Shown: positions 1 through 64,000 of the stretch, piece by piece
How the letters are laid out: every line of letters starts with the position of its first letter
Numbering within the stretch: position 1 is the first letter of the stretch
NCBI GenBank assembly: GCA_032622095.1
Contig: CP136061.1
Location: 13,717,287-13,781,286, forward strand
From: Siphonodentalium dalli
Lineage: Eukaryota > Mollusca > Scaphopoda > Gadilida > Siphonodentaliidae
DNA: 64,000 nucleotides
Direction: 5' to 3'
Position numbers and translations under genes: made by a program
Notes under the pieces: generated by a model
Seen by the model: only the letters and a program-made list of their open reading frames with translations
What the model was told of the DNA's origin: nothing
Databases searched by the model: none

Positions 1-556
1 TTCGAGTCTATAAAGGACACACTCATATATATGACACTTCCCGTAGGTAGCAAGTTTGAGCTCAATCGGCATTCCCTGGAATTTCCCGTTGATTGGCAGA
101 TTCCAGTAGCTTTATAACGGTATATCTGGGGAGAAATCTGATGCTATATTCGTGATTATCTGGAATGATTTCGGTATATACCGAAGCTATAACAATGATG
201 TTGTAAGAGCTCCAATAAATCTCCCCGCATAGGCAAGCACTCAATGTTCCCGTATAACTCTGCAGATGCCAATAACGTTGAATGGGAAACAGACGCTCTT
301 TATAGAGATGCGTCAAAAACAAACGCTCATTAAATAATCACTTGATTAACCCACGCAGTGCCTTTGCGGTGATTTGAGATTGGAGAACGGGTGCTCTGAG
401 CTTCTCTAAACCGCGACCACGGTCGTGTCGGTGTGATTTGACACTTACAAAGGGAGTTTGAGCTCAATCTTTACACGCGTTTTGGATTCTATGAAGTACC
501 CACACACATATATACATATATACATATATATATACGAAGTCTCAAAATATATAGTA
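1..556 (-). mobile_element. Family A Helitron-like unit, partial (cut by window edge)
   Basis: This is the 5'-terminal half (plus-strand right half) of an A unit. It contains AAGTTTGAGCTCAATCGG motifs and TATA microsatellites, and ends at TATATAGTA just before the next CTAG. It matches the right half of the 1068-bp unit at 6903-7970 nearly base for base, apart from the TA-repeat length. No coding potential is recognised. Confidence 0.6.
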
Positions 557-1559
557 CTAGCAGGTTAGCCCGCCACTGGCGGCATTCGTCCCATGGCTTT
601 GTTTCAGAAACATGACATTTTTGTAATTATTTTGTTTTTATTTATTTTTGTTTTTTATTTTTGAATATGAATTTAATGTTTTTTAAATTTAATATATTTT
701 GTTTCTGAATTTTTTTTTTATTGTTAATTTTTTTTAATTTTAAATTGTTTTAATTAAATTGTAAATTGTTTTATTTAATTTTTTTGTTTCTGGCGGAAAA
801 ATTTACCCGTAGAAATCCCCCCCTTCCTAGGAACGACAGACAACGCATTCTTTGTTTCGCGAAATCTCTCTACGATAACATTGCATTGAATTTAAAACAA
901 ACATTTCCCGTCGGAAAATCTGTCTTCGGGTCGTTGTTGTTGGCATCACGGCTCCCCGAAAACTCTCACATTGCCGAAAACGTGTATTTAGTAATATCGT
1001 TGTTGTTGATATTTACGGGGGGCTATTTTCTTATTTAGCAAGTTTGAGCTCAATCGGTTAGAGTCTATACAGGACACACTCATATATATGACACTTCCCG
1101 TAGGTAGCAAGTTTGAGCTCAATCGGCATTCCCTGGAATTTCCCGTAGATTGGCAGATTCCAGTAGCTTTATAACGGTATATCTGGGGAGAAATCTGATG
1201 CTATATTCGTGATTATCTGGGATGATTTCGGTATATACCAAAGGTATATACTGTAAAAACAGAGCGCGCCATCCGTGCTTGCAGGGAATAAATTTCGAGC
1301 GATAACGTTTGCGTTCCCGTATAACTCTGCAGATGCGAATAACGTTGAATGGGAAACAGACGCTCTTTATAGAGATGCGTCAAAAACAAACGCTCATTAA
1401 ATAATCACTTGATTAACCCCCGCCGTGCCTTTGCGGTGATTTGAGATTGGAGAACGGGTGCTCTGAGCTTTTCTAAACCGCGACTACGGCGGTGTCGGTG
1501 GGATTTTACACTTACATACGAAATTTGATCTCAATCTGTACACGCGTTTTGGATTCTAT

Positions 1560-1597
<38 letters not shown>

Positions 1598-1619
1598 CGA
1601 AGTCTCAAAATATATAGTA
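557..1619 (-). mobile_element. Family A Helitron-like unit (1063 bp), empty-site paralogue of the LINE insertion
   Basis: The unit starts CTAGCAGGTTAGCCCGCC with hairpin CCGCC-act-GGCGG. An AT-rich block rich in T runs (about 600-780) follows, then a body with repeated AAGTTTGAGCTCAATCGG, a (CA)n run and the TATATAGTA end. It has the same diagnostic variants as the unit split by the LINE (CGCGAAATC, ACATTTCCCGTCGG) and so shows that site uninterrupted around 885-900. The junction with the next unit is AGTA|CTAG, so the TC expected at the minus-strand 5' end is missing here. Confidence 0.65.
1565..1592. repeat. (CA)n microsatellite inside unit 5' end
   Basis: Pure AC repeat just inside the unit terminus. 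A comparable run sits at the same place in the A units ending near 3970, 15890 and 17107, so the microsatellite belongs to the element. Confidence 0.9.
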
Positions 1620-2781
1620 CTAGCAGGTTAGCCCGCCACCGGCGGCTTGTCCGAAACATGACATTTTTTAAATATTTTTTTTTAATTTTTAGCTCCACGC
1701 GTTTCAATAAGAAAAATTTGTACCCGGTAGCTCCACCCGTTTCCGAGATCTGGTCTGCGCATGCGCGAAGCTGGCGTCGCACGGGCTCGGCGACCCGATC
1801 AAATTTGTACCCGGCCCAAGATACATTCACATAGCAAATTTCAAGTCGATAGCTCCACCCGTTTACGAGATCTCGTCTGCGCATGCGCTGCACGGGCGTC
1901 GCATGGGCTCGGCGACCCGATAAAATTTGTACCCGGTGCAAGATACATTCACATAGCAAATTTCAGGTCGATAGCTCCACCCGTTTCCGAGATCTGCCTT
2001 TCTGCATAATATTTCGAGCGATAACATTGCATTGAAATGTCAGACTCCCATCGTGAACCTCAACACGAAGTAAACACGTGTTTCGAGCGATAACATTGCA
2101 TTGAAATGACTCCCATCGTGAACCTCAAGACGACGTAAAACACGTGTTGCGTTCTAGGAAATGCACTCAATGCAGATGCTAATAACGTTGACTTCGTATA
2201 TATATATATAATGACGTTATTAACCCCGGCCGTGCCGTTTGAGCTGATTTTTATGACTGGGAGTGGAGTACGGGTGCTCGGAGCTTCTGGAAAACGCGTG
2301 GACGACATCGTACGTGATATTTTACCTTTAGATAGGAAGTTTGAGCTCAATCTGTCCAGCCGTTCCCGTCATAATGTACTATTTCGAGCGATAACAATTG
2401 TCAGACTCCCATCGTGAACCTCAACACGAAGTAAACACGTGTTTCGAGCGATAACATTGCATTGAAGTCAGACTCCCATCGTAGACCCACAAGCCGACGT
2501 AAACACGTGTTTGTTCCGGTATAACTTTGGAGACTCTGACTTCATATATATATATAATGACGTTATTAACCCCGGCCGTGCCGTTTGAGCTGATTTCGAT
2601 GACTGGGAGTGGATAAAGGGTGCTCAGAGCTTCTCGAAAACACGATTACGGCGGTGTCGGTGGGATTTTACACTTACATACGAAATTTGATCTCAATCTG
2701 TACACGCGTTTTGGATTCTATGAAGTACACACATATATACACACACACACATATACGAAGTCTCAAAATATATAGTATAGA
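1620..2781 (-). mobile_element. Chimeric unit: A head, B-type 122-bp repeats, A tail
   Basis: The A head is the CCACCGGCGG hairpin variant. About two copies of the 122-bp B core (motif TTTCAAGTCGATAGCTCCAC, NRF1-like TGCGCATGCGC) follow at about 1731-2000. The rest is A-type tail with two near-copies of a segment beginning TTTCGAGCGATAACATTGC. The end is AGTATAGA|CTAG, which retains the GA (minus-strand TC). Confidence 0.55.
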
Positions 2782-3936
2782 CTAGCAGGTTAGCCCGCCA
2801 CTGGCGGCATTCGTCCCATGGCTTTGGTCGATCCATTAATTTTAGTTTTTCAATGTAACCCCGTACAGGACCGGGCTACTCAAAAACCAAATTTCAAGTC
2901 GATAGCTCCACCCGTTTCCGAGATCTGGTCTGCGCATGCGCGAATCTGGCGTCGCACGGGCTCGGCGACCCGATAAAATTTGTACCCGGTGCAAGATACA
3001 TTCACATACCAAATTTCAAGTCGATAGCTCCACCCGTTTCCGATATCTCGTCTGCGCATGCGCTGCACGGGCGTCGCACGGGCTCGCCAATACGACAGCG
3101 ACGACCACCTGGTCAAACTACACTCACGTACCAAGTTTCGCCCCGATCGGTCGAGGTGTTGGTATCTGATGCAAAAGACGAAATTGTGAGTGTTGGTCAA
3201 TAGTCCCCGCCGTGAACCTCATCGTCGCAAAGAGCGGACAGTCAATTAACCCCGTTGTGAACCTCAATCATCAACGCGACGTATGTGTTGCGTTCTAAAA
3301 ATAGGAAAGCACTTTCTCTCTGCATAATTCTGCAGATGCTAATAACGTTGCTCCCCGTAGGTAGCAATATCGTTGTTGTTGATATTTACGGCTTGGTGGC
3401 TATTTTCTTATTTAGCAAGTTTGAGCTCAATCGGTTAGAGTCTATAAAGGACACACTCATATATATGACACTTCCCGTAGGTAGCAAGTTTGAGCTCAAT
3501 CGGCATTCCCTGGAATTTCCCGTAGATTGGCAGATTCCAGTAGCTTTATAACGGTATATCTGGGGAGAAATCTGATGCTATATTCGTGATTATGTGGGAT
3601 GATTTCGGTATATACCAAAGGTATATACTGTAAAAACAAAGCGCGCCATCCGTGCTCGCAGGGAATAAATTTCGAGCGATAACGTTTGCGTTCCCGTATA
3701 ACTCTGCAGATGCGAATAACGTTGAATGGGAAACAGACGCTCTTTATAGTGATGCGTCAAAAACAAACACTCATTAAATAATCACTTGATTAACCCCCGC
3801 CGTGCCTTTGCGGTGATTTGAGATTGGAGAACGGGTGCTCTGAGCTTTTCTAAACCGCGACCACGGTCGTGTCGGTGGGATTTGACACTTACATAGGAAG
3901 TTTGATCTCAATCTGTACACGCGTTTTGGATTCTAT

Positions 3937-3974
<38 letters not shown>

Positions 3975-4008
3975 CGAAGTCTCAAAATATATAGTATAGA
4001 TAGATAGA
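2782..4008 (-). mobile_element. Chimeric A/B unit (1227 bp), duplicated at 15921-17147
   Basis: A head, then a remnant of a B head (ACCGGGCTACTCAAAAACC at about 2870), then two 122-bp B repeats and an A tail with (CA)n. The length equals that of 15921-17147 and the two differ at only scattered bases by eye, so they are recent paralogues. Confidence 0.6.
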
Positions 4009-6902: not shown

Positions 6903-7970
6903 CTAGCAGGTTAGCCCGCCACTGGCGGCATTCGTCCCATGGCTTTGTTTCAGAAATATGACATTTTTGTAATTATTTTGTTTTTATTTATTTTTGTTTT
7001 TTATTTTTGAATATGAATTTAATGTTTTTTAAATTTAATATATTTTGTTTCTGAATTGTTTTTTTATTGTTAATTTTTTTTTATTTTAAATTGTTTTAAT
7101 TAAATTGTAAATTGTTTTAATTAATTTTTTTGTTTCTGGCGGAAAATTTTACCCGTAGAAATCCCCCCTTCCTAGGAACGACAGACAACGCATTCTTTGT
7201 TTCGTGAAATCTCTCTACGATAACATTGCATTGAATTTAAAACAAACGCTTCCCGTCGGGAAATCTGTCTTCGGGTCGTTGTTGTTGGCATCACGGCTCC
7301 CCGAAAACTCTCACATTGCCGAAAACGTGTATTTAGTAATATCGTTGTTGTTGATATTTACGGCTTGGGGGCTATTTTCTTATTTAGCAAGTTTGAGCTC
7401 AATCGGTTCGAGTCTATAAAGGACACACTCATATATATGACACTTCCCGTAGGTAGCAAGTTTGAGCTCAATCGGCATTCCCTGGAATTTCCCGTTGATT
7501 GGCAGATTCCAGTAGCTTTATAACGGTATATCTGGGGAGAAATCTGATGCTATATTCGTGATTATCTGGAATGATTTCGGTATATACCGAAGCTATAACA
7601 ATGATGTTGTAAGAGCTCCAATAAATCTCCCCGCATAGGCAAGCACTCAATGTTCCCGTATAACTCTGCAGATGCCAATAACGTTGAATGGGAAACAGAC
7701 GCTCTTTATAGAGATGCGTCAAAAACAAACGCTCATTAAATAATCACTTGATTAACCCACGCCGTGCCTTTGCGGTGATTTGAGATTGGAGAACGGGTGC
7801 TCTGAGCTTCTCTAAACCGCGACCACGGTCGTGTCGGTGGGATTTGACACTTACATAGGGAGTTTGAGCTCAATCTTTACACGCGTTTTGGATTCTATGA
7901 AGTACCCACACACATATATACATATATACATATATACATATATATATACGAAGTCTCAAAATATATAGTA
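6903..7970 (-). mobile_element. Family A unit, first of two tandem 1068-bp copies
   Basis: CTAG to CTAG spacing is exactly 1068 bp here and in the next copy, and the two are close to identical by eye. T-rich AT block at about 6960-7130, then the repeated AAGTTTGAGCTCAATCGG segment and TATACATA microsatellite. Confidence 0.7.
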
Positions 7971-9038
7971 CTAGCAGGTTAGCCCGCCACTGGCGGCATT
8001 CGTCCCATGGCTTTGTTTCAGAAACATGACATTTTTGTAATTATTTTGTTTTTATTTATTTTTGTTTTTTATTTTTGAATATGAATTTAATGTTTTTTAA
8101 ATTTAATATATTTTGTTTCTGAATTGTTTTTTTATTGTTAATTTTTTTTTATTTTAAATTGTTTTAATTAAATTGTAAATTGTTTTAATTATTTTTTTTG
8201 TTTCTGGCGGAAAATTTTACCCGTAGAAATCCCCCCTTCCTAGGAACGACAGACAACGCATTCTTTGTTTCGTGAAATCTCTCTACGATAACATTGCATT
8301 GAATTTAAAACAAACGCTTCCCGTCGGGAAATCTGTCTTCGGGTCGTTGTTGTTGGCATCACGGCTCCCCGAAAACTCTCACATTGCCGAAAACGTGTAT
8401 TTAGTAATATCGTTGTTGTTGATATTTACGGCTTGGGGGCTATTTTCTTATTTAGCAAGTTTGAGCTCAATCGGTTCGAGTCTATAAAGGACACACTCAT
8501 ATATATGACACTTCCCGTAGGTAGCAAGTTTGAGCTCAATCGGCATTCCCTGGAATTTCCCGTTGATTGGCAGATTCCAGTAGCTTTATAACGGTATATC
8601 TGGGGAGAAATCTGATGCTATATTCGTGATTATCTGGAATGATTTCGGTATATACCGAAGCTATAACAATGATGTTGTAAGAGCTCCAATAAATCTCCCC
8701 GCATAGGCAAGCACTCAATGTTCCCGTATAACTCTGCAGATGCCAATAACGTTGAATGGGAAACAGACGCTCTTTATAGAGATGCGTCAAAAACAAACGC
8801 TCATTAAATAATCACTTGATTAACCCACGCCGTGCCTTTGCGGTGATTTGAGATTGGAGAACGGGTGCTCTGAGCTTCTCTAAACCGCGACCACGGTCGT
8901 GTCGGTGGGATTTGACACTTACATAGGGAGTTTGAGCTCAATCTTTACACGCGTTTTGGATTCTATGAAGTACCCACACACATATATACATATATACATA
9001 TATACATATATATATACGAAGTCTCAAAATATATAGTA
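7971..9038 (-). mobile_element. Family A unit, second tandem 1068-bp copy
   Basis: Direct tandem duplicate of 6903-7970 with the same length and the same small reading frames at 1068-bp offset. These frames are not genes: they lie in shared non-coding element sequence. Confidence 0.7.
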
Positions 9039-44785: not shown

Positions 44786-44795
44786 TAAATATTTA

Positions 44796-47226: not shown

Positions 47227-47227
<1 letters not shown>

Positions 47228-48053: not shown

Positions 48054-48435
48054 TATAATCTTTCCATAAAAATTCAAGTAAAAATTGAAAAATATACGAA
48101 ATAGTTGCCAGGAAGGTGATCGTATGAGGTTTTATGAACTTACTGATTCTAGACCAGTGTTATCGCGAGGTTATACCATAGCCTGTCAAAATTTCATCAC
48201 AATGTTGTAAGTTTTACAAAAAATATTAAATTTTCTCATTTTTCACAATTAGTTTTCAAATTTTAATCTTAGATCACGTTCAGACACCGTTATTTATAAC
48301 TCCCTTCATCACTCTCTATACTGTTTCATTTTATCCTTCTCAACCCAACTTGACATCCAGCATTCTAAGTGTAAACTACATAATTCGTTTTTCTGCAAAA
48401 TTTATATTTTAGAGGGTGGGGTTTACACTCATATC
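48054..48435. repeat. 382-bp recurrent spacer, copy 2
   Basis: Near-identical to 42774-43155, with only isolated base differences seen by eye. Confidence 0.85.
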
Positions 48436-49105
48436 ACACTGCCCGGACACAAGTACCCGACAAACGTGCCCGTCGAAATCCATCCGGTTTTACCCGATTT
48501 GACCTTGAATTGATCATTTTGAAGGTCAAGGTCAGATCGGGGTCACGATTTGACCCGTCCAAAACACTCAGTGGACAAAAGTAACCCTATGTATAAGATT
48601 TTGTCGAAATCCCATCAAAATTGGCGATTTGACCTTGAATTGACCAGATTTAAAGGTCAACGTCACGTCGCACGGGCAAATGAATCTGCTTATGAGACTC
48701 CCCATACGAAAGTACTCCCACATACCAAGTTTCATCGAAATCCCGTGATATTCGGGCGTTTGACCTTGAAATGACACGATTTCAAGGTCAGTGTCACGTC
48801 GCACGGGCAAATTAATAAGTTTATACCACTCCCCGGCCGAAGGTACCCCCACATACCAAGTTTCATCGAAATCTCGTGATATTCAGGCGTTTGACCTTAA
48901 CATTACCCGATTTCAAGATTAAGGTCACGTCGCACGGACAAATTAATATGCATATGCCACCCCTCGGTCGAAAGTACCCCCACATACCAAGTTTCATCGA
49001 AATCGGCAGGGCCGTTTTCGAGTTCATCGCGAACACACAGACACACACCCCCCCGACACACACACACACATACACACAGACAGATCTTCCAAAATATATA
49101 ATAGA
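48436..49105 (-). mobile_element. Headless family C unit
   Basis: Same arrangement as 43156-43823. Ends AATAGA|CTAG. Confidence 0.65.
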
Positions 49106-49675
49106 CTAGTCGATGAGCCCGACGTTGTCCGGGCTATTCAAAAACCAAATTTCAAGTCGATAGCTCTACCCAGCCCGACGTTGTCCGGGCTATTCAAAAA
49201 CCAAATTTCAAGTCGATAGCTTTACCCGTTTCCGAGACCTGGTCTGCGCATGTGCGAAGCTGGCGTCGAAAGGGCTCGGTGACCCGATAAAATTCGTATA
49301 CGGGGGAAGATACATTCACATACCAAATTTCAAGTCGATAGCTCCAGCCGTTTCCGAGATCTCGTCTGCGCATGCGCGAAGCTGGCGTCGCATGGGCTCG
49401 GCGACCCGATAAAATTCGTATCCGGGGCAAGATACATTCACATAGCAAATTTCAAGTCGATAGCTCCATCCGTTTCCGAGATCTCGTCTGCGCATGCGCT
49501 GCACGGGCGCCGCATGGGCTCGCCAATACGACAACGACGACCGCCTGGTCAAACTACACACACGTACCAAGTTTCGTCCCGATCGGTCGAGAATCGTAGA
49601 TTTGTATAAATGACATACATACAGACAGACATACAGACAGACATACAGACAGAGGTCTTCAAAATATATAATAGA
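49106..49675 (-). mobile_element. Family B unit, CTAGTCGATG variant
   Basis: Block-start B unit. It and its left neighbours are nearly identical to the stretch 2158 bp to the right (51264-51833). Confidence 0.68.
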
Positions 49676-50210
49676 CTAGCCGATGAGCCCGACGTTGTCC
49701 GGGCTATCCAAAAACCAAATTTCAAGTCGATAGCTCTACCCAGCCCGACGATTTCAAGTCGATAGCTCTACCCGTTTCCGAGATACTGGTCTGCGCATGC
49801 GCGAAGCTGGTGTCGCACAGGCTCGGCGACCCGATGAGCCCGACGTTGTCCGGGTTATTCAAAAACCAAATTTCAAGTCGATAGCTCTGCCCGTTTCCGA
49901 GATCTCGTCTGCGAATGCGCGAAGCTGGCGTCGCACGGGCTCGGCGACCCGATAAAATTCGTATCCGGGGCAAGATACATTCACATAGCAAATTTCAAGT
50001 CGATAGCTCCACCCGTTTCCGAGATCTCGTCTGCGCATGCGCGAAGCGGGCGCCGCACGGGCTCGCCAATACGACAACGACGACCACCTGGTCAAACTAC
50101 ACACACGTACCAAGTTTCGTGCCGATCGGTCGAGAATCGTAGATTTGTATTAATGACAAACATACATACATACAGACAGACAAACAGAGGTCTTCAAAAT
50201 ATATATGAGA
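49676..50210 (-). mobile_element. Family B unit with internal second head
   Basis: CCGAT-mediated internal head near 49832, then repeats and GAGA|T before spacer copy 3. Confidence 0.63.
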
Positions 50211-50592
50211 TATAATCTTTCCATAAAAATTCAAGTAAAAATTGAAAAATATACGAAATAGTTGCCAGGAAGGTGATCGTATGAGGTTTTATGAACTTAC
50301 TGATTCTAGACCAGTGTTATCGCGAGGTTATACCATAGCCTGTCAAAATTTCATCACAATGTTGTAAGTTTTACAAAAATTATTAAATTTTCTCATTTTT
50401 CACAATTAGTTTTCAAATTTTAATCTTAGATCACGTTCAGACACCGTTATTTATAACTCCCTTCATCACTCTCTATACTGTTTCATTTTATCCTTCTCAA
50501 CCCAACTTGACATCCAGCATTCTAAGTGTAAACTACATAATTCGTTTTTCTGCAAAATTTATATTTTAGAGGGTGGGGTTTACACTCATATC
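50211..50592. repeat. 382-bp recurrent spacer, copy 3
   Basis: Near-identical to the other four copies. Confidence 0.85.
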
Positions 50593-51263
50593 ACACTGCC
50601 CGGACACAAGTACCCGACAAACGTGCCCGTCGAAATCCATCCGGTTTTACCCGATTTGACCTTGAATTAATCATTTTGAAGGTCAAGGTCAGATCGGGGT
50701 CACGATTTGACCCGTCCAAAACACTCAGTGGACAAAAGTAACCCTATGTATAAGATTTTGTCGAAATCCCATCAAAATTGGCGATTTGACCTTGAATTGA
50801 CCAGATTTAAAGGTCAACATCACGTCGCACGGGCAAATGAATATGCTTATGAGACTCCCCATACGAAAGTACTCCCACATACCAAGTTTCATCGAAATCC
50901 CGTGATATTCGGGCGTTTGACCTTGAAATGACACGATTTCAAGGTCAGTGTCACGTCGCACGGGCAAATTAATAAGTTTATACCACTCCCCGGCCGAAGG
51001 TACCCCCACATACCAAGTTTCATCGAAATCTCGTGATATTCAGGCGTTTGACCTTAACATTACCCGATTTCAAGATTAAGGTCACGTCGCACGGACAAAT
51101 TAATATGCATATGTCACCCCTCGGTCGAAAGTACCCCCACATACCATGTTTCATCGAAATCGGCAGGGCCGTTTTCGAGTTCATCGCGAACACACAGACA
51201 CACCCCCCCCCCCCGACACACACACACATACACACAGACAGATCTTCCAAAATATATAATAGA
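50593..51263 (-). mobile_element. Headless family C unit
   Basis: C body with 131-bp repeats. Its microsatellite contains a run of about ten C (near 51204-51214). Confidence 0.65.
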
Positions 51264-51833
51264 CTAGTCGATGAGCCCGACGTTGTCCGGGCTATTCAAA
51301 AACCAAATTTCAAGTCGATAGCTCTACCCAGCCCGACGTTGTCCGGGCTATTCAAAAACCAAATTTCAAGTCGATAGCTTTACCCGTTTCCGAGACCTGG
51401 TCTGCGCATGTGCGAAGCTGGCGTCGAAAGGGCTCGGTGACCCGATAAAATTCGTATACGGGGGAAGATACATTCACATACCAAATTTCAAGTCGATAGC
51501 TCCAGCCGTTTCCGAGATCTCGTCTGCGCATGCGCGAAGCTGGCGTCGCATGGGCTCGGCGACCCGATAAAATTCGTATCCGGGGCAAGATACATTCACA
51601 TAGCAAATTTCAAGTCGATAGCTCCATCCGTTTCCGAGATCTCGTCTGCGCATGCGCTGCACGGGCGCCGCATGGGCTCGCCAATACGACAACGACGACC
51701 GCCTGGTCAAACTACACACACGTACCAAGTTTCGTCCCGATCGGTCGAGAATCGTAGATTTGTATAAATGACATACATACAGACAGACATACAGACAGAC
51801 ATACAGACAGAGGTCTTCAAAATATATAATAGA
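51264..51833 (-). mobile_element. Family B unit, first of the 5-kb block set
   Basis: CTAGTCGATG variant. Corresponding units start 4986 bp later (56250) and a further 4880 bp later (61130). Confidence 0.68.
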
Positions 51834-52350
51834 CTAGCCGATGAGCCCGACGTTGTCCGGGCTATCCAAAAACCAAATTTCAAGTCGATAGCTCTACCCG
51901 TTTCCGAGATCTGGTCTGCGCATGTGCGAAGCTGGCGTCGCACGGGCTCGGCGAACCGATAAAATTCGTATTCGGGGGAAGATACATTCACATAGCAAAT
52001 TTCAAGTCGATAGCTCCACCCGTTTCCGAGATCTCGTCTGCGCATGCACGAAGCTAGCGTCGCACGGGCTCGGCGACCCGATATAATTCGTATCCGGGGC
52101 AAGATAAATTCACATAGTAAATTTCAAGTCGATAGCTCCACCCGTTTCCGAGATCTCGTCTGCGCATGCGCGAATCGGGCGCCGCACGGCTCGACAATAC
52201 GACACCGACGACCACCTGGTCAAACTACACACATGTACCAAGTTTCGTCCCGATCGGTCGAGAATCGTAGATTTGTATAAATGACATACATACATACATA
52301 CAGACAGACATACATACAGACAGAGGTCTTTCAAAAATATATATGAGAGA
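51834..52350 (-). mobile_element. Family B unit
   Basis: One hairpin and three repeats, ending GAGAGA, then TAAATATTTA and A|CTAG. Paralogue at 56812. Confidence 0.67.
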
Positions 52351-52360
52351 TAAATATTTA

Positions 52361-52980
52361 CTAGAAGGTGACCCGACTTCGTCCGGGCTTTGACCTTGAA
52401 TTGTCCATTTTGAAGGTCAAGGTCAAGTGGGGTCACGATTTGACCAGTCCAAAAACACTGCCCGGACAAAAGTACCCGACAAACGTGCCCGTCGAAATCC
52501 AACCGGTTTTACCCGATTTGACCTTGAATTGATCATTTTGAAGGTCAATGTCTGGTCGGGGTCACGATTGGACCCGTCCAAAACAATCAGTGGACAAAAC
52601 TAACCCCACGTATCAAATTTCGTCGAAATCCCATCAAAATTGGCGATTTGACCTTGAAGTTACCCGATTTCAAGGTCAATGTCACGTCGCACGGGCAAAT
52701 GAATGCTTATGAGACTCGCCATAAGAAAGTACCCCCACATACTAAGTTTCATCGAAATCCCGTGATATTCGGGCGTTTGACCTTGAAATGACCCGATTTC
52801 AAGGTCAAGGTCACGTCGAACGGACAAATTAATATGCCTATGTTCGTCACCGGCCGAAAATACCCCCACATACCAAGTTTCATTGAAATCGGGTGGGCCG
52901 TTTTTGAGTTCATCGCGAACACACAGACAGACACACAGACAGACACACAGACACACAGATCTTCCAAAATATATAATAGA
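52361..52980 (-). mobile_element. Family C unit
   Basis: Paralogue of 44796-45417 with a 2-bp deletion (AATGAATGCTTATG near 52700). Confidence 0.7.
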
Positions 52981-53519
52981 CTAGCCGATGAGCCCGACGT
53001 TGTCCGGGCTATTCAAAAACCAAATTTCAAGTCGATAGCTCTACCCAGCCCGACGATTTCAAGTCGATAGCTCTACCCGTTTCCGAGATCTGGTCTGCGC
53101 ATGCGCGAAGCTGGCGTCGCACGGGCTCGGCGACCCGATGAGCCCGACGTTGTCCGGGTTATTCAAAAACCAAATTTCAAGTCGATAACTCCCCCCGTTT
53201 CCGAGATCTCGTCGGCGCATGCGCGAAGCTGGCGTCGCACGGGCTCGGCGACCCGATACAATTCGTATCCGGGGCAAGATACATTCACATAGCAAAATTT
53301 CAAGTCGATAGCTCCACCCGTTTCCGAGATCTCGTCTGCGCATGCGCGAAGCGGGCGCCGCACGGGCTCGCCAATACGACAACGTCCACCGCCTGGTCAA
53401 ACTACACACACGCACCAAGTTTCATCCCGATCGGTCGAGATTCGTAGATTTGTATTAATGACAAACATACAGACAAACAGACAGACAAACATACAGACAG
53501 AGGTCTTCAAAATATATAT

Positions 53520-53523
<4 letters not shown>
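52981..53523 (-). mobile_element. Family B unit with internal second head
   Basis: CCGAT-mediated internal head near 53133. Ends GAGA|T, followed by (TA)n. Confidence 0.65.

Positions 53524-53561
<38 letters not shown>
53524..53561. repeat. (TA)n between units
   Basis: About 19 TA repeats between the GA end and the next A|CTAG. Confidence 0.9.
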
Positions 53562-53562
<1 letters not shown>

Positions 53563-53819
53563 TAGCCGATGAGCCCGACGTTGTGCGGGCTATTCAAAAA
53601 CCAAATTTCAAGTCGATAGCTCCACCCGTTTCCGAGATCTGGTCTGCGCATGCGCGAAGCTGGCGTCGCACGGGCTCGCCAATACGACAATGTCCACCGC
53701 CTGGTCAAACTACACACACGTACCAAGTTTCGTCCCGATCGGTCGAGAATCGTAAATTTGTATAAATGACAAACAAACATACATACTGACAAACAGAGGT
53801 CTTCAAAATATATAATAGA
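53562..53819 (-). mobile_element. Short family B unit (258 bp)
   Basis: GTGCGGGC hairpin variant and a single repeat. Direct AATAGA|CTAG junction on the right. Confidence 0.68.
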
Positions 53820-54328
53820 CTAGCCGATGAGCCTGACGTTGTCCGGGCTATTCAAAAACCAAATTTCAAGTCGATAGCTCTACCCGTTTCCGAGATCTGG
53901 TCTGCGCATGCGCGAAGCTGGCGTCGCACGGGCTCGGCGACCCGATAAAATTCGTATCCGGGGGAAGATACATTCACATAGCAAATTTCAAGTCGATAGC
54001 TCCGCCCGTTTCCGAGATCTCGTCTGCGAATGCGCGAAGCTGGCGTCGCACGGGCTCGGCGACCCGATAAATTTCGTATCCGGGGCAAGATACATTCACA
54101 TAGCAAATTTCAAGTCGATAGCTCCACCCGTTTCCGAGATCTCGTCTGCGCATGCGCGAATCGGGCGCCGCACGGGCTCGCCAATACGACAATGTCCACC
54201 GCCTGGTCAAACTACACACACGCACCAAGTTTCATCCCGATCGGTCGAGAATCGTAGATTTGTATTAATGACAAACATACAGACAAACAGACAAACAAAC
54301 ATACAGACAGAGGTCTTCAAAATATATA

Positions 54329-54329
<1 letters not shown>
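53820..54329 (-). mobile_element. Family B unit
   Basis: GCCTGACG hairpin and three repeats. The end has merged into the TA tract (ATATATATTAATATA), losing GAGA. Confidence 0.63.

Positions 54330-54368
<39 letters not shown>
54330..54368. repeat. (TA)n between units
   Basis: About 19 TA repeats. Confidence 0.9.
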
Positions 54369-54369
<1 letters not shown>

Positions 54370-54634
54370 TAGCCGATGAGCCCGACGTTGTGCGGGCTAT
54401 TCAAAAACCAAATTTCAAGTCGATAGCTCCACCCGTTTCCGAGATCTGGTCTGCGCATGCGCGAAGCTGGCGTGGCACGGGCTCGCCAATACGACAATGT
54501 CCACCGCCTGGTCAAACTACACACACGTACCAAGTTTCGTCCCGATCGGTCGAGAATCGTAAATTTGTATAAATGACAAACAAACATACATACAGACAGA
54601 CAGACAAACAGAGGTCTTCAAAATATATAATAGA
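54369..54634 (-). mobile_element. Short family B unit (266 bp)
   Basis: Duplicate of 53562-53819 with a slightly longer CAGA microsatellite. Confidence 0.68.
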
Positions 54635-55196
54635 CTAGCCGATGAGCCTGACGTTGTCCGGGCTATCCAAAATCCAAATTTCAAGTCGATAGCTCTACCC
54701 ATCCCGACGTTGTCAGGGCTATTCAAAAACCAAATTTCAAGTCGATAGCTCTACCCGTTTCCGAGATCTGGTCTGCGCATGCGCGAAGCTGGCGTCGCAC
54801 GGGCTCGGCGACCCGATAAAATTCGTATCCGGGGGAAGATACATTCACATAGCAAATTTCAAGTCGATAGCTCCGCCCGTTTCCGAGATCTCGTCTGCGA
54901 ATGCGCGAAGCTGGTGTCGCACGGGCTCGGCGACCCGATAAAATTCGTATCCGGGGCAAGATACATTCACATAGCAAATTTCAAGTCGATAGCTCCACCC
55001 GTTTCCGAGATCTCGTCTGCGCATGCGCGAAGCGGGCGCCACACGGGCTCGCCAATACGACAACGACGACCACCTGGTCAAACTACACACACGTACCAAG
55101 TTTCGTGCCGATCGGTCGAGAATCGTAGATTTGTATTAATGACAAACATACATACATACAGACAGACAAACAGAGGTCTTCAAAATATATATGAGA
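54635..55196 (-). mobile_element. Family B unit
   Basis: Paralogue of 47492-48053 with the same two variant hairpins. Ends GAGA|T before spacer copy 4. Confidence 0.67.
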
Positions 55197-55580
55197 TATA
55201 ATCTTTCCATAAAAATTCAAGTAAAAATTGAAAAATATACGAAATAGTTGCCAGGAAGGTGATCGTATGAGGTTTTATGAACTTACTGATTCTAGACCAG
55301 TGTTATCGCGAGGTTATACCATAGCCTGTCAAAATTTCATCACAATGTTGTAAGTTTTACAAAAATTATTAAATTTTCTCATTTTTCACAATTAGTTTTC
55401 AAATTTTAATCTTAGATCACGTTCAGACACCGTTATTTATAACTCCCTTCATCACTCTCTATACTGTTTCATTTTATCCTTCTCAACCCAACTTGACATC
55501 CAGCATTCTAAGTGTAAACTACATAATTCGTTTTTTTCTGCAAAATTTATATTTTAGAGGGTGGGGTTTACACTCATATC
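55197..55580. repeat. 382-bp recurrent spacer, copy 4
   Basis: Near-identical to the others, with extra T in the T run near 55531. Confidence 0.85.
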
Positions 55581-56249
55581 ACACTGCCCGGACACAAGTA
55601 CCCGACAAACGTGCCCGTCGAAATCCATCCGGTTTTACCCGATTTGACCTTGAATTGATCATTTTGAAGGTCATGGTCAGATCGGGGTCACGATTTGACC
55701 CGTCCAAAACACTCAGTGGACAAAAGTAACCCTATGTATAAGATTTTGTCGAAATCCCATCAAAATTGGCGATTTGACCTTGAATTGACCAGTTTTAAAG
55801 GTCAAGGTCACGTCGCACGGGCAAATGAATATGCTTATGAGACTCCCCATACGAAAGTACTCCCACATACCAAGTTTCATCGAAATCCCGTGATATTCGG
55901 GCGTTTGACCTTGAAATGACCCGATTTCAAAGTCAGTGTCACGTCGCACGGGCAATTAATAAGTTTATACCACTCCCCGGCCGAAGGTACCCCCACATAC
56001 CAAGTTTCATCGAAATCTCGTGATATTCGGGCGTTTGACCTTAACATTACCCGATTTCAAGATTAAGGTCACGTCGCACGGACAAATTAATATGCATATG
56101 CCACCCCTCGGTCGAAAGTACCCCCACATACCAAGTTTCATCGAAATCGGCAGGGCCGTTTTCGAGTTCATCGCGAACACACAGACACACCCCCCCCCGA
56201 CACACACACACACATACACACAGACAGATCTTCCAAAATATATAATAGA
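55581..56249 (-). mobile_element. Headless family C unit
   Basis: C body and CA/C-run microsatellite. Ends AATAGA against a CTAA start. Confidence 0.65.
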
Positions 56250-56811
56250 CTAATCGATGAGCCCGACGTTGTCCGGGCTATTCAAAAACCAAATTTCAAG
56301 TCGATAGCTCTACCCAGCCCGCCGTTGTCCGGGCTATTCAAAAACCAAATGTCAAGTCGATAGCTTTACCCGTTTCCGAGACCTGGTCTGCGCATGTGCG
56401 AAGCTGGCGTCGAAAGGGCTCGGCGACCCAATAAAATTTGTATACGGGGCAAGAAACATTCACATACCAAATGTCAAGTCGATAGCTCCACCCGTGTCCG
56501 AGATCTGGTCTGCGCATGCGCGAAGCTTGCGTCGCACGGGCTCGGCGACCCGATAAAATTCGTATCCGGGTCAAGATACATTCACATAGCAAATTTCAAG
56601 TCGATAGCTCCACCCGTTTCCGAGATCTTGTCTGCGCATGCGCTGCACGGGCGTCGCACGGGCTCGCCAATACGACAACGACGACCGCCTGGTCAAACTA
56701 CACACATGTACCAAGTTTCGTCCCGATCGGTCGAGAATCGTAGATTTGTATTAATGACAGACAGACAGACAGACAGACAAACAAACAGAGGTCTTCAAAA
56801 TATATTATAGA
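56250..56811 (-). mobile_element. Family B unit with CTAA start
   Basis: The head reads CTAATCGATGAGCCCGACG. Second block of the 5-kb set. Second hairpin GCCCGCCGTTGTCCGGGC is variant. Confidence 0.65.
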
Positions 56812-57326
56812 CTAGCCGATGAGCCCGACGTTGTCCGGGCTATCCAAAAACCAAATTTCAAGTCGATAGCTCTACCCGTTTCCGAGATCTGGTCTGCGCA
56901 TGTGCGAAGCTGGCGTCGCACGGGTTCGGCGAACCGATAAAATTCGTATTCGGGGGAAGATACATTCACATAGCAAATTTCAAGTCGATAGCTCCACCCG
57001 TTTCCGAGATCTCGTCTGCGCATGCACGAAGCTAGCGTCGCACGGGCTCGGCGACCCGATATAATTCGTATCCGGGGCAAGATAAATTCACATAGCAAAT
57101 TTCAAGTCGATAGCTCCACCCGTTTCCGAGATCTCGTCTGCGCATGCGCGAAGCGGGCGCCGCACGGCTCGACAATACGACAACGACGACCACCTGGTCA
57201 AACTACATACATGTACCAAGTTTCGTCCCGATCGGTCGAGAATCGTAGATTTGTATAAATGACATACATACATACATATAGACAGACATACATACAGACA
57301 GAGGTCTTTCAAAAATATATATGAGA
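56812..57326 (-). mobile_element. Family B unit
   Basis: Paralogue of 51834-52350. Ends ATATATGAGA, then GTTATATATATA and CTAG. Confidence 0.65.
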
Positions 57327-57338
57327 GTTATATATATA

Positions 57339-57960
57339 CTAGAAGGTGACCCGACTTCGTCCGGGCTTTGACCTTGAATTGTCCATTTTGAAGTTCAAGG
57401 TCAAGTGGGGTCACGATTTGACTAGTCCAAAAACACTGCCCGGACAAAAGTACCCGACAAACGTGCCCGTCGAAATTCAACCGGTTTTACCCGATTTGAC
57501 CTTGAATTGATCATTTTGAAGGTCAATGTCTGGTCGGGGTCACGATTGGACCCGTCTAAAACAATCAGTGGACAAAACTAACCCCACGTATCAAATTTCG
57601 TCGAAATCCCATCAAATTTGGCGATTTGAACTTGAAGTTACCCGATTTCAAGGTCAATGTCACGTCGCACGGGCAAATGAATATGCTTATGAGACTCGCC
57701 ATAAGAAAGTACCCCCACATACCAAGTTTCATCGAAATCCCGTGATATTCGGGCGTTTGACCTTGAAATGACCCGATTTCAAGGTCAAGGTCACGTCGCA
57801 CGGACAAATTAATATGCATATGTTCGTCCCCGGCCGAAAATACCCCCACATACCAAGTTTCAGTGAAATCGGGTGGGCCGTTTTTGAGTTCATCGCGAAC
57901 ACACAGACAGACACACAGACAGACACACAGACACACAGATCTTCCAAAATATATAATAGA
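57339..57960 (-). mobile_element. Family C unit
   Basis: Paralogue of 44796-45417. Direct AATAGA|CTAG junction. Confidence 0.7.
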
Positions 57961-58410
57961 CTAGCCGATGAGCCCGACGTTGTCCGGGCTATTCAAAAAC
58001 CAAATTTCAAGTCGATAGCTCTACCCGTTTCCGAGATCTGGTCTGCGCATGCGCGAAGCTGGCGTCGCACGGACTCGGCGACCCGATAAAATTCGTATCC
58101 GGGGAAAGATACATTCACATAGCAAATTTCAAGTCGATAGCTCCACCCGTTTCCGAGATCTCGTCTGCGCATGCGCGAAGCTGGTGTCACACGGGCTCGG
58201 CGACCCGATAAAATTCGTATCCGGGGCAAGATACATTCACATAGCAAATTTCAAGTCGATAGCTCCACCTGTTTCCGAGATCTCGTCTGCGCATGCGCGA
58301 AGCGGGCGCCGCACGGGCTCGCCAATACGACAACGTTCACCGCCTGGTCAAACTACACACACGTACCAAGTTTCGTCCCGATCGGTCGAGAATCGTAGAT
58401 TTGTATTAAT

Positions 58411-58446
<36 letters not shown>

Positions 58447-58478
58447 TACAGACAGAGGTCTTCAAAATATATATGAGA
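57961..58478 (-). mobile_element. Family B unit with perfect GAGA|CTAG junction
   Basis: One hairpin, three repeats and a long (CAGA)n. It ends CAAAATATATATGAGA immediately followed by CTAG, so the two termini touch with no intervening base. Confidence 0.72.
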
Positions 58479-59259
58479 CTAGCCGATGAGCCCGACGTTG
58501 TCCGGGCTATTCAAAAACCAAATTTCAAGTCGATAGCTCTACCCAGCCCGACGATTTCAAGTCGATAGCTCTACCCGTTTCCGAGATCTGGTCTGCGCAT
58601 GCGCGAAGCTGGCGTCGCAAGGGCTCTGCGACCCGATGAGCCCGACGTTGTCCGGGTTATTCAAAAACCAAATTTCAAGTCGATAGCTCTACCCATTTCC
58701 GAGATCTGGTCTGCGCATGCGCGAAGCTGGCGTCGCACGGGCTCGGCGACCCGATAAAATTCGTATCCGGGGCAAGATACATTCACATACCAAATTTCAA
58801 GTCGATAGCTCTACCCGTTTCCGAGATCTCGTCTGCGCATGCGCGAAGCTGGCATCGCACGGGCTCGGCGACCCGATAAAATTCGTATCCGGGAAAGATA
58901 CATTCACATACCAAATTCCAAGTCGATAGCTCCACCCGTTTCCGAGATCTCGTCGGCGCATGCGCGAAGCTGGCGTCGCACGGGCTCGGCGACCCGATAC
59001 AATTCGTATCCGGGGCAAGATACATTCACATAGCAAATTTCAAGTCGATAGCTCCACCCGTTTCCGAGATCTCGTCTGCGCATGCGCGAAGCGGGCGCCG
59101 CACGGGATCGCCAATACGACAACGTCCACCGCCTGGTCAAACTACACACACGCACCAAGTTTCATCCCGATCGGTCGAGAATCGTAGATTTGTATTAATG
59201 ACAAACATACAGACAAACAGACAGACAAACATACAGACAGAGGTCTTCAAAATATATAT

Positions 59260-59263
<4 letters not shown>
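58479..59263 (-). mobile_element. Family B unit with internal second head
   Basis: CCGAT-mediated internal head near 58636 and four further repeats. Ends GAGA|T plus (TA)n. Confidence 0.65.

Positions 59264-59305
<42 letters not shown>
59264..59305. repeat. (TA)n between units
   Basis: About 21 TA repeats. Confidence 0.9.
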
Positions 59306-59306
<1 letters not shown>

Positions 59307-59571
59307 TAGCCGATGAGCCCGACGTTGTGCGGGCTATTCAAAAACCAAATTTCAAGTCGATAGCTCCACCCGTTTCCGAGATCTGGTCTGCGCATGCGCG
59401 AAGCTGGCGTCGCACGGGCTCGCCAATACGACAATGTCCACCGCCTGGTCAAACTACACACACGTACCAAGTTTCGTCCCGATCGGTCGAGAATCGTAAA
59501 TTTGTATAAATGACAAACAAACATACATACAGACAGACAGACAAACAGAGGTCTTCAAACTATATAATAGA
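59306..59571 (-). mobile_element. Short family B unit (266 bp)
   Basis: GTGCGGGC hairpin variant; same as 54369-54634. Confidence 0.68.
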
Positions 59572-60077
59572 CTAGCCGATGAGCCTGACGTTGTCCGGGC
59601 TATTCAAAAACCAAATTTCAAGTCGATAGCTCAACCCGTTTCCGAGATCTGGTCTGCGCATGCGCGAAGCTGGCGTCGCACGGGCTCGGCGACCCGATAA
59701 AATTCGTATCCGGGGGAAGATACATTCACATAGCAAATTTCAAGTCGATAGCTCCGCCTGTTTCCGAGATCTCGTCTGCGAATGCGCGAAGCTGGCGTCA
59801 CACGGGCTCGGCGACCCGATAAAATTCGTATCCGGGGCAAGATACATTCACATAGCAAATTTCAAGTCGATAGCTCCACCCGTTTCCGAGATCTCGTCTG
59901 CGCATGCGCGAAGCGGGCGCCGCACGGGCTCGCCAATACGACAACGACGACCACCTGGTCAAACTACACACACGTACCAAGTTTCGTGCCGATCGGTCGA
60001 GAATCGTAGATTTGTATTAATGACAAACATACATACATACAGACAGACAAACAGAGGTCTTCAAAATATATATGAGA
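59572..60077 (-). mobile_element. Family B unit
   Basis: GCCTGACG hairpin and three repeats. GAGA|T before spacer copy 5. Confidence 0.67.
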
Positions 60078-60459
60078 TATAATCTTTCCATAAAAATTCA
60101 AGTAAAAATTGAAAAATATACGAAATAGTTGCCAGGAAGGTGATCGTTTGAGGTTTTATGAACTTATTGATTCTAGACCAGTGTTATCGCGAGGTTATAC
60201 CATAGCCTGTCAAAATTTCATCACAATGTTGTAAGTTTTACAAAAATTATTAAATTTTCTCATTTTTCACAATTAGTTTTCAAATTTTAATCTTAGATCA
60301 CGTTCAGACACCGTTATTTATAACTCCCTTCATCACTCTCTATACTGTTTCAGTTTATCCTTCTCAACCCAACTTGACATCCAGCATTCTAAGTGTAAAC
60401 TACATAATTCGTTTTTCTGCAAAATTTATATTTTAGAGGGTGGGGTTTACACTCATATC
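60078..60459. repeat. 382-bp recurrent spacer, copy 5
   Basis: Near-identical to the other copies. Confidence 0.85.
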
Positions 60460-61129
60460 ACACTGCCCGGACAAAAGTACCCGACAAACGTGCCCGTCGA
60501 AATCCATCCGGTTTTACCAGATTTGACCTTGCATTGATCATTTTGAAGGTCAAGGTCAGATCGGGGTCACGATTTGACCCGTCCAAAACACTCAGTGGAC
60601 AAAAGTAACCCTATGTATAAGATTTTGTCGAAATCCCATCAAAATTGGCGATTTGACCTTGAATTGACCAGATTTAAAGGTCAAGGTCACGTCGCACGGG
60701 CAAATGAATACGCTTATGAGACTCCCCATACGAAAGTACTCCCACATACCAAGTTTCATCGAAATCCCGTGATATTCGGGCGTTTGACATTGAAATGACC
60801 CGATTTCAAGGTCAGTGTCACGTCGCACGGGCAAATTAATAAGTTTATCCCACTCCCCGGCCGAAGGTACCCCCACATACCAAGTTTCATCGAAATCTCG
60901 TGATATTCGGGCGTTTGACCTTAACATTACCCGATTTCAAGATTAAGGTCACGTCGCACGGACAAATTAATATGCATATGCCACCCCTCGGTCGAAAGTA
61001 CCCCCACATACAAAGTTTCATCGAAATCGGCAGGGCCGTTTTCGAGTTCATCGCGAACACACAGACACACCCCCCCCCGACACACACACACACATACACA
61101 CAGACAGATCTTCCAAAATATATAATAGA
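60460..61129 (-). mobile_element. Headless family C unit
   Basis: C body with 131-bp repeats and CA/C-run microsatellite. AATAGA|CTAG. Confidence 0.65.
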
Positions 61130-61577
61130 CTAGTCGATGAGCCCGACGTTGTCCGGGCTATTCAAAAACCAAATTTCAAGTCGATAGCTCTACCCAGCCC
61201 GACGTTGTCCGGGCTATTCAAAAACCAAATTTCAAGTCGATAGCTTTACCCGTTTCCGAGACCTGGTCTGCGCATGTGCGAAGCTGGCGTCGAAAGGGCT
61301 CGGTGACCCGATAACATTCGTATACGGGGGAAGATACATTCACATAGCAAATTTCAAGTCGATAGCTCCATCCGTTTCCGAGATCTCGTCTGCGCATGCG
61401 CTGCACGGGCGCCGCATGGGCTCGCCAATACGACAACGACGACCGCCTGGTCAAACTACACACACGTACCAAGTTTCGTCCCGATCGGTCGAGAATCGTA
61501 GATTTGTATAAATGACATACATACAGACAGACATACAGACAGACATACAGACAGAGGTCTTCAAAATATATAATAGA
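61130..61577 (-). mobile_element. Family B unit, 122 bp shorter than its paralogues
   Basis: Third block of the 5-kb set. It is 448 bp against 570 bp in 51264-51833, so exactly one 122-bp repeat has been lost. Confidence 0.68.
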
Positions 61578-61970
61578 CTAGCCGATGAGCCCGACGTTGT
61601 CCGGGCTATCCAAAAACCAAATTTCAAGTCGATAGCTCTACCCGTTTCCGAGATCTGGTCTGCGCATGTGCGAAGCTGGCGTCGCACGGGCTCGGCGAAC
61701 CGATAAAATTCGTATCCGGGGCAAGATAAATTCACATAGCAAATTTCAAGTCGATAGCTCCACCCGTTTCCGAGATCTCGTCTGCGCATGCGCGAAGCGG
61801 GCGCCGCACGGCTCGACAATACGACAACGACGACCACCTGGTCAAACTACACACATGTACCAAGTTTCGTCCCGATCGGTCGAGAATCGTAGATTTGTAT
61901 AAATGACATACATACATACATACATACAGACATACATACAGACAGAGGTCTTTCAAAAATATATATGAGA
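61578..61970 (-). mobile_element. Family B unit
   Basis: Paralogue of 44391-44785. Ends ATATATGAGA, then GTTATATATATA and CTAG. Confidence 0.66.
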
Positions 61971-61982
61971 GTTATATATATA

Positions 61983-62744
61983 CTAGAAGGTGACCCGACT
62001 TCGTCCGGGCTTTGACCTTGAATTGTCCATTTTGAAGGTCAAGGTCAAGTGGGGTCACGATTTGACTAGTCCAAAAACACTGCCAGGACAAAAGTACCCG
62101 ACAAACGTGCCCATCGAAATCCAACCGGTTTTACCCGATTTGACCTTGAATTGATCATTTTGAAGGTCAATGTCTGGTCGGGGTCACGATTGGACCCGTC
62201 CAAAACAATCAGTGGACAAAACTAACCCCACGTATCAAATTTCGTCGAAATCCCATCAAAATTGGCGATTTGACCTTGAATTGACCAGATTTAAAGGTCA
62301 AGGTCACGTCGCACGGGTAAATGAATATGCTTATGAGACTCCCCATACGAAAGTACTCCCACATACCAAGTTTCATCGAAATCCCGTGATATTCGGGCGT
62401 TTGACCTTGAAATGACCCGATTTCAAGGTCAGTGTCACGTCGCACGGGCTAATTAATAAGTTTATACCACTCCCCGGCCGAAGGTACCCCCACATACCAA
62501 GTTTCATCGAAATCTCGTGATATTCGGGCGTTTGGCCTTAACATTACCCGATTTCAAGATTAAGGTCACGTCGCACGGACAAATTAATATGCATATGCCA
62601 CCCCTCGGTCGAAAGTACCCCCACATACCAAGTTTCATCGAAATCGGCAGGGCCGTTTTCGAGTTCATCGCGAACACACAGACACACACCCCCCCGACAC
62701 ACACACACATACACACAGACAGATCTTCCAAAATATATAATAGA
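61983..62744 (-). mobile_element. Family C unit with one extra 131-bp repeat
   Basis: C head, then a body that switches near 62280 to the version otherwise found in headless C units. This is a C/C recombinant. Confidence 0.65.
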
Positions 62745-63322
62745 CTAGTCGATGAGCCCGACGTTGTCTGGGCTATTCAAAAACCAAATTTCAAGTCGAT
62801 AGCTCTACCCAGCCAGACGTTGTCCGGGCTATTCAAAAACCAAATTTCAAGTCGATAGCTTTACCCGTTTCCGAGACCTGGTCTGCGCATGTGCGAAGCT
62901 GGCGTCGAAAGGGCTCGGTGACCCGATAAAATTCGTATACGGGGGAAGATACATTCACATACCAAATTTCAAGTCGATAGCTCCATCAAAATTGGCGATT
63001 TGACCTTGAAGTTACCCGATTTCAAGGTCAATGTCACGTCGCACGGGCAAATGAATATGCTTATGAGACTCGCCATAAGAAAGTACCCCCACATACCAAG
63101 TTTCATCGAAATCCCGTGATATTCGGGCGTTTGACCTTGACATGACCCGATTTCAAGGTCAAGATCACGTCGCACGGACAAATTAATATGCCTATGTTCG
63201 TCCCCGGCCGAAAATACCACAACATACCAAGTTTCATTGAAATCGGGTGGGCCGTTTTTGAGTTCATCGCGAACACACAGACAGACACACAGACACACAG
63301 ATCTTCCAAAATATATAATAGA
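62745..63322 (-). mobile_element. Chimeric unit: B head, C tail
   Basis: CTAGTCGATG head and one repeat, then a switch to C body inside CTCCATCAAAATTGGC near 62985. Ends AATAGA|CTAG. Confidence 0.62.
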
Positions 63323-64000
63323 CTAGCCGATGAGCCCGACGTATTCCGGGCTATTCAAAAACCAAATTTCAAGTCGATAGCTCTACCCAGCCCGACGATT
63401 TCAAGTCGATAGCTCCACCCGTTTCCGAGATCTGGTCTGCGCATGCGCGAAGCTGGCGTCGCACGGGTTCGGCGACCCGATGAGCCCGACGTTGTCCGGG
63501 TTATTCAAAAACCAAATTTCAAGTCGATAGCTCTACCCGTTTCCGAGATCTGGTCTGCGCATGCGCGAAGCTGGCGTCGCACGGGCTCGGCGACCCGATA
63601 AAATTCGTATCCGGGGCAAGATACATTCACATACCAAATTTCAAGTCGATAGCTCTACCCGTTTCCGAGATCTCGTCTGCGCATGCGCGAAGCTGGCATC
63701 GCACGGGCTCGGCGACCCGATACAATTCGTATCCGGGAAAGATACATTCACATACCAAATTCCAAGTCGATAGCTCCACCCGTTTCCGAGATCTCGTCTG
63801 CGCATGCGCGAAGCTGGCATCGCACGGGCTCGGCGACCCGATACAATTCGTATCCGGGGCAAGATACATTCACATAGCAAATTTCAAGTCGATAGCTCCG
63901 CCCGTTTCCGAGATCTCGTCTGCGCATGCGCGAAGCGGGCGCCGCACGGGCTGGCCAATACGACAACGTCCACCGCCTGGTCAAACTACACACACGCACA
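63323..64000 (-). mobile_element. Family B unit with internal second head, cut by window edge
   Basis: First hairpin disrupted (GCCCGACGTATTCCGGGC), CCGAT-mediated internal head near 63477, and four 122-bp repeats up to the end of the window. Confidence 0.65.

Follow-up and report, generated by a model that had tools for sequence, protein, structure and literature searches.

Tandem Helitrons are cited from Myotis, Drosophila, rice and maize in an article (PMC5148889) that itself describes, in Fusarium, one Helitron lying 2 bp from the 5' end of another; this and the other articles cited by number are represented here by excerpts. In maize, two different elements form one CTAG/TC pair (a slash marks the joint), and insertion between a host A and the T of a resident element was one model offered for it (PMC2267711). 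The same article cites tandem Helitron junctions in Myotis. Arrays of truncated Helitrons have been reported from plants (Xiong et al. 2016, as described in PMC12628747), and in Pleurotus Helitrons often land in AT-rich regions that hold other Helitrons (PMC4289320). For its part, the Helitron Helraiser cuts only the plus strand of a joined-end oligonucleotide in vitro (PMC5876387). Here we describe a chain of Helitrons that runs through a 64,000-nucleotide stretch of the genome of the scaphopod Siphonodentalium dalli (C1:13717287-13781286, on contig 1 of a 2.23-Gb genome in 9 contigs), called the window throughout.

Our reading, to which we assign a probability of about 70%, is that the chain grew chiefly through successive one-way insertions, each at the 5' end of the resident copy. 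The preliminary description of this DNA had offered two causes, rolling-circle read-through and tandem duplication; it left out the one that fits best, directional insertion of newcomers at a resident element's end. The junctions counted are overwhelmingly same-direction and lie at particular places, and insertions 4 nt inside the end of one family leave TAGA on the growing side. Head-to-tail Helitrons are already known, and the additions made here are the strand lock, the register and the readable order.

Direction and position of the junctions

The units lie on the minus strand, so that on the plus strand each is met from its 3' end (the head) to its 5' end (the tail). Strict head patterns, scanned on the plus strand, gave 57 Helitron 3' ends, and a looser scan of both strands of the window gave 62 on the plus strand and 0 on the minus strand. 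A 27-nt junction-head pattern with up to 3 mismatches matched 23 times, on the plus strand only, with a shuffling expectation of 0.00. The same-orientation, head-to-tail chain proposed in the preliminary description was thereby borne out, as were its many direct junctions, including GA/CTAG, which is exact at 58478/58479. The claim that the whole window consists of such units stood as regards the chain, but one long interspersed nuclear element (LINE), one Penelope-like fragment and spacers are also present. Beyond the window the chain continues, with same-direction matches across C1:13714967-13786343 and no opposite-strand match in that interval among the matches listed of the B/C- and A-type patterns.

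The head sequence served to define four families, A (CTAGCAGGTTAGCCCGCC), B (CTAGCCGATGAGCCCGACG), C (CTAGAAGGTGACCCGAC) and D (CTAGCAGGTGGACCCGAC). Plus-strand tails end in CAAAATATAT...GA, and on the minus strand these are the 5' ends (TCTCATATATATTTTG in B, TCTATTATATATTTTG in C and TCTATACTATATATTTTG in A). By our own sorting of the 57 heads on the preceding sequence, 29 sit directly on an intact tail, 9 on a cut tail, 7 follow a tail plus a TAGA-type remnant, 11 follow (TA)n or a short spacer and 1 belongs elsewhere; duplicates in the right half make 57 larger than the number of insertion events.

The orientation of the units is shared well outside this locus. Exact 34-nt heads of family B number 13,859 genome-wide (7,017 and 6,842 on the two strands). 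Among the first 100 of them on contig 1, neighbours less than 2 kb apart point the same way in 28/28 cases and those 2-10 kb apart in 7/7, while at 10-50 kb 5 are the same and 3 different, and beyond 50 kb 28 are the same and 28 different. Direct same-direction junctions with B/C-type tails amount to 18,345 exact cases genome-wide. Tail-to-tail opposite junctions of B/C-type ends were found at 2 places (L049 and L050), and opposite junctions of a B/C-type newcomer at the inner landing site of family A (offset 4, below) at 0. At L049 the junction forms a perfect palindrome, and the unit to its left is short.

The position of the junctions, expressed as the offset in nucleotides inside the resident's 5' end, is equally restricted among the offsets counted. 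Family B ends were struck 8,468 times at offset 0 and 0 times at offset 5 genome-wide; for family A, the counts were 2,472 at offset 0 and 2,117 at offset 4. The preliminary description had remarked that many A units lack the terminal TC. This was seen, and is explained by the next insertion splitting 4 nt off the end. Only 18 A copies end at offset 4 before host DNA (three of the four possible next bases counted), and the short A tails are therefore taken as struck targets; the idea that offset 4 marks an alternative 5' end of this family was rejected. From the landing point to the G of a conserved TTTTG there are 16 nt in B and C and 18 and 14 nt in A, with 11 nt for the unused offset 5 of B. 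These four numbers suggest that the landing position may be set by the distance to TTTTG.

When an insertion splits TCTA off an A end, TAGA is expected beyond the newcomer's tail. Genome-wide, the A tail is followed by TAGA 985 times and by TAG plus C, G or T, the three bases together, 28 times. Remnants were mapped against the first 100 cut tails listed (contig 1 to 125.3 Mb), below which point 44 of the 100 listed remnants lie. An exact cut tail was found upstream, on the same strand and within 5 kb, for 26 of these 44 (random mean, 0.084; random maximum, 2), and within that distance no remnant had its cut tail only downstream or on the opposite strand. In the window, cut tails at 556 and 1619 precede two extra TAGA at 4008, and those at 37753 and 39743 come before a single TAGA at 41930 and another at 42212. 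The growth order of the chains thus appears partly readable from the scraps at the joints.

A mechanism can be proposed in which the resident's 5' terminal sequence would be the landing site of the newcomer. The transposase would probably bind and nick the resident's 5' end on one strand, as in normal initiation; in the product, the newcomer would be linked to the host A by its TC and to the resident's T by its CTAG. Cleavage of one strand would account for the shared orientation, and a spacing of 14-18 nt from the landing point to TTTTG for the positions. Segmental duplication and occasional insertion of multimers would lengthen the chains further. A landing pad that is the element's own initiation site fits the strand-specific cleavage of joined ends by Helraiser. 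In its fuller form, the proposal makes the resident's 5' terminus a strand-locked landing pad that accepts any family sharing this terminus and is placed by distance to an internal motif, not by host-target rules, with growth in one direction and remnants that record the order; we regard the odds for this fuller form as even. If it is true, Helitron activity in a genome could be read as ordered stacks. Should the landing pad be the 5' initiation site, donor cleavage would be linked to target choice, scattered transposons would have a simple route to satellite-like arrays, and clear predictions would follow for the Helraiser assay.

Insertion sites, the autonomous element and other features

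As the preliminary description had it, the window's elements are canonical Helitrons: on the minus strand they run from TC to CTAG, and they sit between A and T with no duplication of the target. Both the 5'-TC and the 3'-CTRR end were found in the autonomous element and in isolated copies (TCTCATATATAT... and ...CTAG). Among flanks of isolated copies and chain ends, the base preceding CTAG is A in 30/31 and the base following the tail is T in 31/31. Curation reduced the left flanks from 31 to 26, six being dropped (L014, a paralog of L011, and L019-4269, L021-4459, L027-2168, L034-308 and L037, chain-internal or misparsed) and one from L051 added; all 26 have A. It reduced the right flanks from 31 to 27, with L019-4265, L027-2033 and L036 (twice) dropped, and all 27 begin with T. 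L001-L008 were excluded from flank and B-pair comparisons, their places being covered by the longer L009-L014. The flank on the CTAG side is AT-rich (81-93% A+T at positions -12 to -5); on the other side the first three positions alone are clearly so.

An uninterrupted paralog of L017, a B insertion, aligns over the joined flanks at 60/63 nt with no gap, and a second one at 60/67 with a 2-nt gap in a TA stretch. L051 and L035 carry a C+B pair inside one repeat, of which uninterrupted copies were recognised by eye in L026 and, more diverged, in L022. No sign of target duplication was seen at the empty paralogous sites of the isolated copies and pairs compared, and, judging from the L051/L035 repeat, a C+B pair can occupy a single site. 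The boundaries expected from the preliminary description, A/CTAG and T, therefore held in isolated copies. Helentrons and HINEs insert at TT or T-rich sites (PMC4067079, PMC7492417); the flanks here give A and T.

The GC hairpin described earlier was upheld in part. A 3' hairpin as stable as the real one arose in 4/200 shuffles for family B and, less markedly, in 11/200 for the autonomous element, but in 47/200, 84/200 and 74/200 for A, C and D, respectively, where GC inverted repeats are visible. A strict stem search placed hairpins in 23 heads, all of family B, and in 0/108 CTAG on the minus strand.

One link of the chain is an autonomous Helitron, which lies in the predicted direction and extends from a B-like head (22259) to a B-type 5' end (30933). 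Its 1,614-codon frame contains the HUH nuclease, tyrosines and PIF1 helicase of a RepHel protein; it matches Helraiser (7lcc_A; E value, 2.4e-271; residues 157-1587), and the HSH and YxxxY motifs align with those of Helraiser. Judging from the protein family, these elements would transpose by a rolling-circle mechanism. The short B units match the first ~310-350 nt (~83-87%) and the last 33 nt (97%) of the autonomous element and hence look like internal-deletion derivatives of it. A RepHel protein search of the genome gave at least 41 matches, pieces of one copy being counted apart, a lower bound in that 29 of 1,734 first-look candidates were scored. Among the matches listed, several are long and open, many are more than 90% identical and another set lies at ~61-70%.

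Two tandem repeats lie within the autonomous element: 69-bp repeats (8.1 copies, 28085-28641), within the RepHel frame where Pfam places the STPR repeats and possibly an added DNA-binding part, and a 357-bp repeat (3.4 copies, 22665-23877) downstream of that frame. A LINE frame of 1,265 codons at 10997-14794 on the plus strand, with endonuclease, reverse transcriptase and zf-RVT domains and a run of 31 A at 15149-15179, sits inside the A unit with its head at 9039 and lengthens it to ~6.9 kb. Another A unit holds, at 18173-18769 on the plus strand, a 198-amino-acid frame for which Pfam gave no domain match; we take it to resemble the GIY-YIG end of a Penelope-like element. A 992-bp segment is duplicated at 99.6% identity in two different units (19232-20223 and 31249-32240). 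A subtype of B whose 5' end is C-like (TCTATTATATATTTTGAAGACC) recurs in 34024-61577, mostly in the right half, and is possibly a chimera of two families multiplied by duplication.

Features of the window discussed in the text (positions are those of the window)
Feature	Position	Strand	Basis or remark
Autonomous Helitron, 8,675 nt, 5' TCTCATATATATTTTGAAGACC ... hairpin, CTAG 3'	22259..30933	-	Link in chain
Open frame, 1,614 codons: Rep (Helitron_like_N) and PIF1 helicase, STPR repeats near N-terminus	23875..28719	-	Pfam
Family B 3' end, hairpin and CTAG at direct junction	58479..58512	-	DNA fold -6.4 kcal/mol, z -2.4
Example B unit, short, gene-less, 518 nt, 5' TCTCATATATATTTTGAAGACC	57961..58478	-	Directly joined on both sides
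Example C unit, 5' end TCTATTATATATTTTGG	57339..57960	-	5' end joined directly to B 3' end
A unit, 5' end split 4 nt inside (TCTA/TACT...)	557..1619	-	Split by next insertion
A unit, complete 5' end	1620..2781	-	Next unit joined directly (offset 0)
A unit, tail with two extra TAGA (last 8 nt)	2782..4008	-	Matches two cut tails to left (556, 1619)
Two A units of 1,068 nt, 99.8% identical, third start at 9039	6903..9038	-	Cut-tail junctions
Two extra TAGA after A tail, before head at 17148	17140..17147	+	
11-nt remnant TAGAAGATAGA between 5' end of autonomous element and next head	30934..30944	+	Whole TAGA units alone insufficient
Right-hand zone of repeated multi-unit blocks	41913..62987		Self-BLAST, pairs 0.9-3.6 kb, 95-98% identity

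Alternative origins of the chain

Rolling-circle concatemers, in which circle replication or read-through of the 3' terminator yields a multimer inserted in one step, would give perfect CTAG/TC junctions such as those observed, and head-to-tail joined ends do arise in Helraiser cells (PMC4778049). At L052, successive 1,125-nt A units, the first of which follows a cut A tail, have perfect junctions, and the two compared are 100% identical. In most of the joined B pairs sampled, adjacent units are not near-identical. Seventeen directly joined B pairs were sampled, and 16 remained after L034, a unit overlapping itself, was discounted; 14 of the 16, several of those in the window being duplicates of one another, fall below the 95th percentile (0.963) of 1,524 B pairs from different loci, so that they are no closer than distant copies. 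Moreover, different families adjoin at exact ends, in the window and at other loci, and end-joined multimers are not expected to yield offset-4 junctions with TAGA remnants. As the main cause, read-through into concatemers, one of the two causes named in the preliminary description, is thus not sustained, and we consider it unlikely.

No shared composite was seen among the C/D-to-B pairs, which came from 7 loci and from 2 places in the window, 9 places in all. Between L025 and L035 the C parts agree at 94.6% and the B parts at 79%. In the two window pairs the C parts, which lie in duplicated blocks, are 98.6% alike but the B parts 85%. For the pairs compared, we reject a mobile C+B composite.

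Tandem or segmental duplication, the other cause proposed earlier, is real in the right half of the window, where long multi-unit blocks are repeated, but it does not create the first junctions. Self-BLAST also detected a single-unit repeat at 6903-9039; since the junctions of these 1,068-nt A units are on cut tails, the pair is probably a local duplication rather than a circle multimer. At L010 a 2,405-bp block is repeated together with its spacer. That duplication of a few founding insertions built the arrays is nevertheless quite improbable in view of the 18,345 exact junctions genome-wide (the listed places all from contig 1) and of the C/D-to-B junctions at seven separate loci with different partners. 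Joined units differ by several per cent, which goes part of the way to showing that adjacent units are mostly not sisters, and duplication accounts neither for the first junctions nor for the remnants.

Plain host-target preference, with AT-rich 5' ends as good A/T targets whose asymmetry sets the orientation, is very improbable. In its favour, the AT tract of the targets is longer on the CTAG side, a tract of this kind is present at the element's 5' end and offset 4 of A scores best or near best (6.3 in total). Against it, a target model built from the small set of 26 left and 27 right flanks gives 10.3 to offset 5 of B and 1.0 to offset 0, where the counts are 0 and 8,468. AT-tract mimicry in the same register was dropped as the whole cause because this model contradicts it for family B.

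Repeated one-way insertion at the resident's 5' end has points weighing against it as well. The ratio of 18,345 to 2 overstates the orientation bias and is an upper view of a large one, because the opposite pattern is stricter (26 fixed bases versus 18, with two intact tails needed), inverted neighbours are less stable and may be lost, and opposite A-type junctions are uncounted. Segmental duplicates are contained in the junction counts, which do not give the number of events. Detailed reading covered loci in the first 28 Mb of contig 1, nearly all of them picked for an exact B head, and the offsets counted were 0 and 4 for A and 0 and 5 for B. Opposite-direction neighbours that do not touch lie 1-3 kb apart in L020 and L026; in L011 and L014 an opposite B-like piece without CTAG lies ~0.65 kb away. 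Two joined B pairs exceed the 95th percentile, one just (0.965) and one by far (0.996, at L024, a pair 99.6% identical), and multimers also occur, as at L052.

The remnants supply further such points. For 18 of the 44, an exact cut tail is lacking within 5 kb; among the 26 with one, 2 have their nearest cut tail on the downstream side. To the left of the two TAGA at 17147 lie four cut tails (6902, 7970, 9038 and 15920), of which some are duplicates; this mismatch in the book-keeping stands unless the 1,068-nt duplicates are collapsed. At 21447, 30944 and 32810 the remnants hold AGA or TAGAAGA pieces that whole TAGA units cannot explain. Finally, landing at the initiation site leaves the two registers of A unexplained if taken alone, and the nick-directed step is one that we infer.

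Comparison with described Helitrons

Among the closest known systems is Helraiser/Helibat1 of Myotis bats, with which the elements described here share a RepHel protein aligned over 1,431 residues, the TC...CTAG ends and an A/T target whose AT preference is strongest beside the 3' end (PMC4778049). What sets them apart from it is that short copies without genes are strung into long one-way chains that carry landing remnants, and that the Rep frame has STPR repeats. Lepidopteran Hel-2 (PMC4344730) is alike, by description alone, in its 5'-TC, 3'-CTAG, hairpin, A/T flanks and internal tandem repeats; chains are unmentioned in the excerpt of that article.

The tandems of Myotis and the plant arrays are likewise head-to-tail. 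As described in the excerpts, they were attributed to rolling-circle tandems, and many have several 5' ends but just one 3' end, whereas the units here belong to mixed families and have both ends. A literature search recognised no report of a genome-wide Helitron strand lock or of such remnants, which, with articles represented in part, is weak evidence of absence. In the same excerpts, the case for Helitron tandem arrays was made from single pairs and from truncated arrays; thousands of junctions, together with a measurable register, an orientation control and scraps, make it easier to tell stepwise insertion from concatemers in one genome. The maize pair (PMC2267711) shares with the present chains the CTAG/TC junction between different elements. 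In that excerpt it is a single pair. The exact junctions of the present genome number ~18,000, and they come with a strand lock, with offset 4 as a second register and with remnants from which an order is read.

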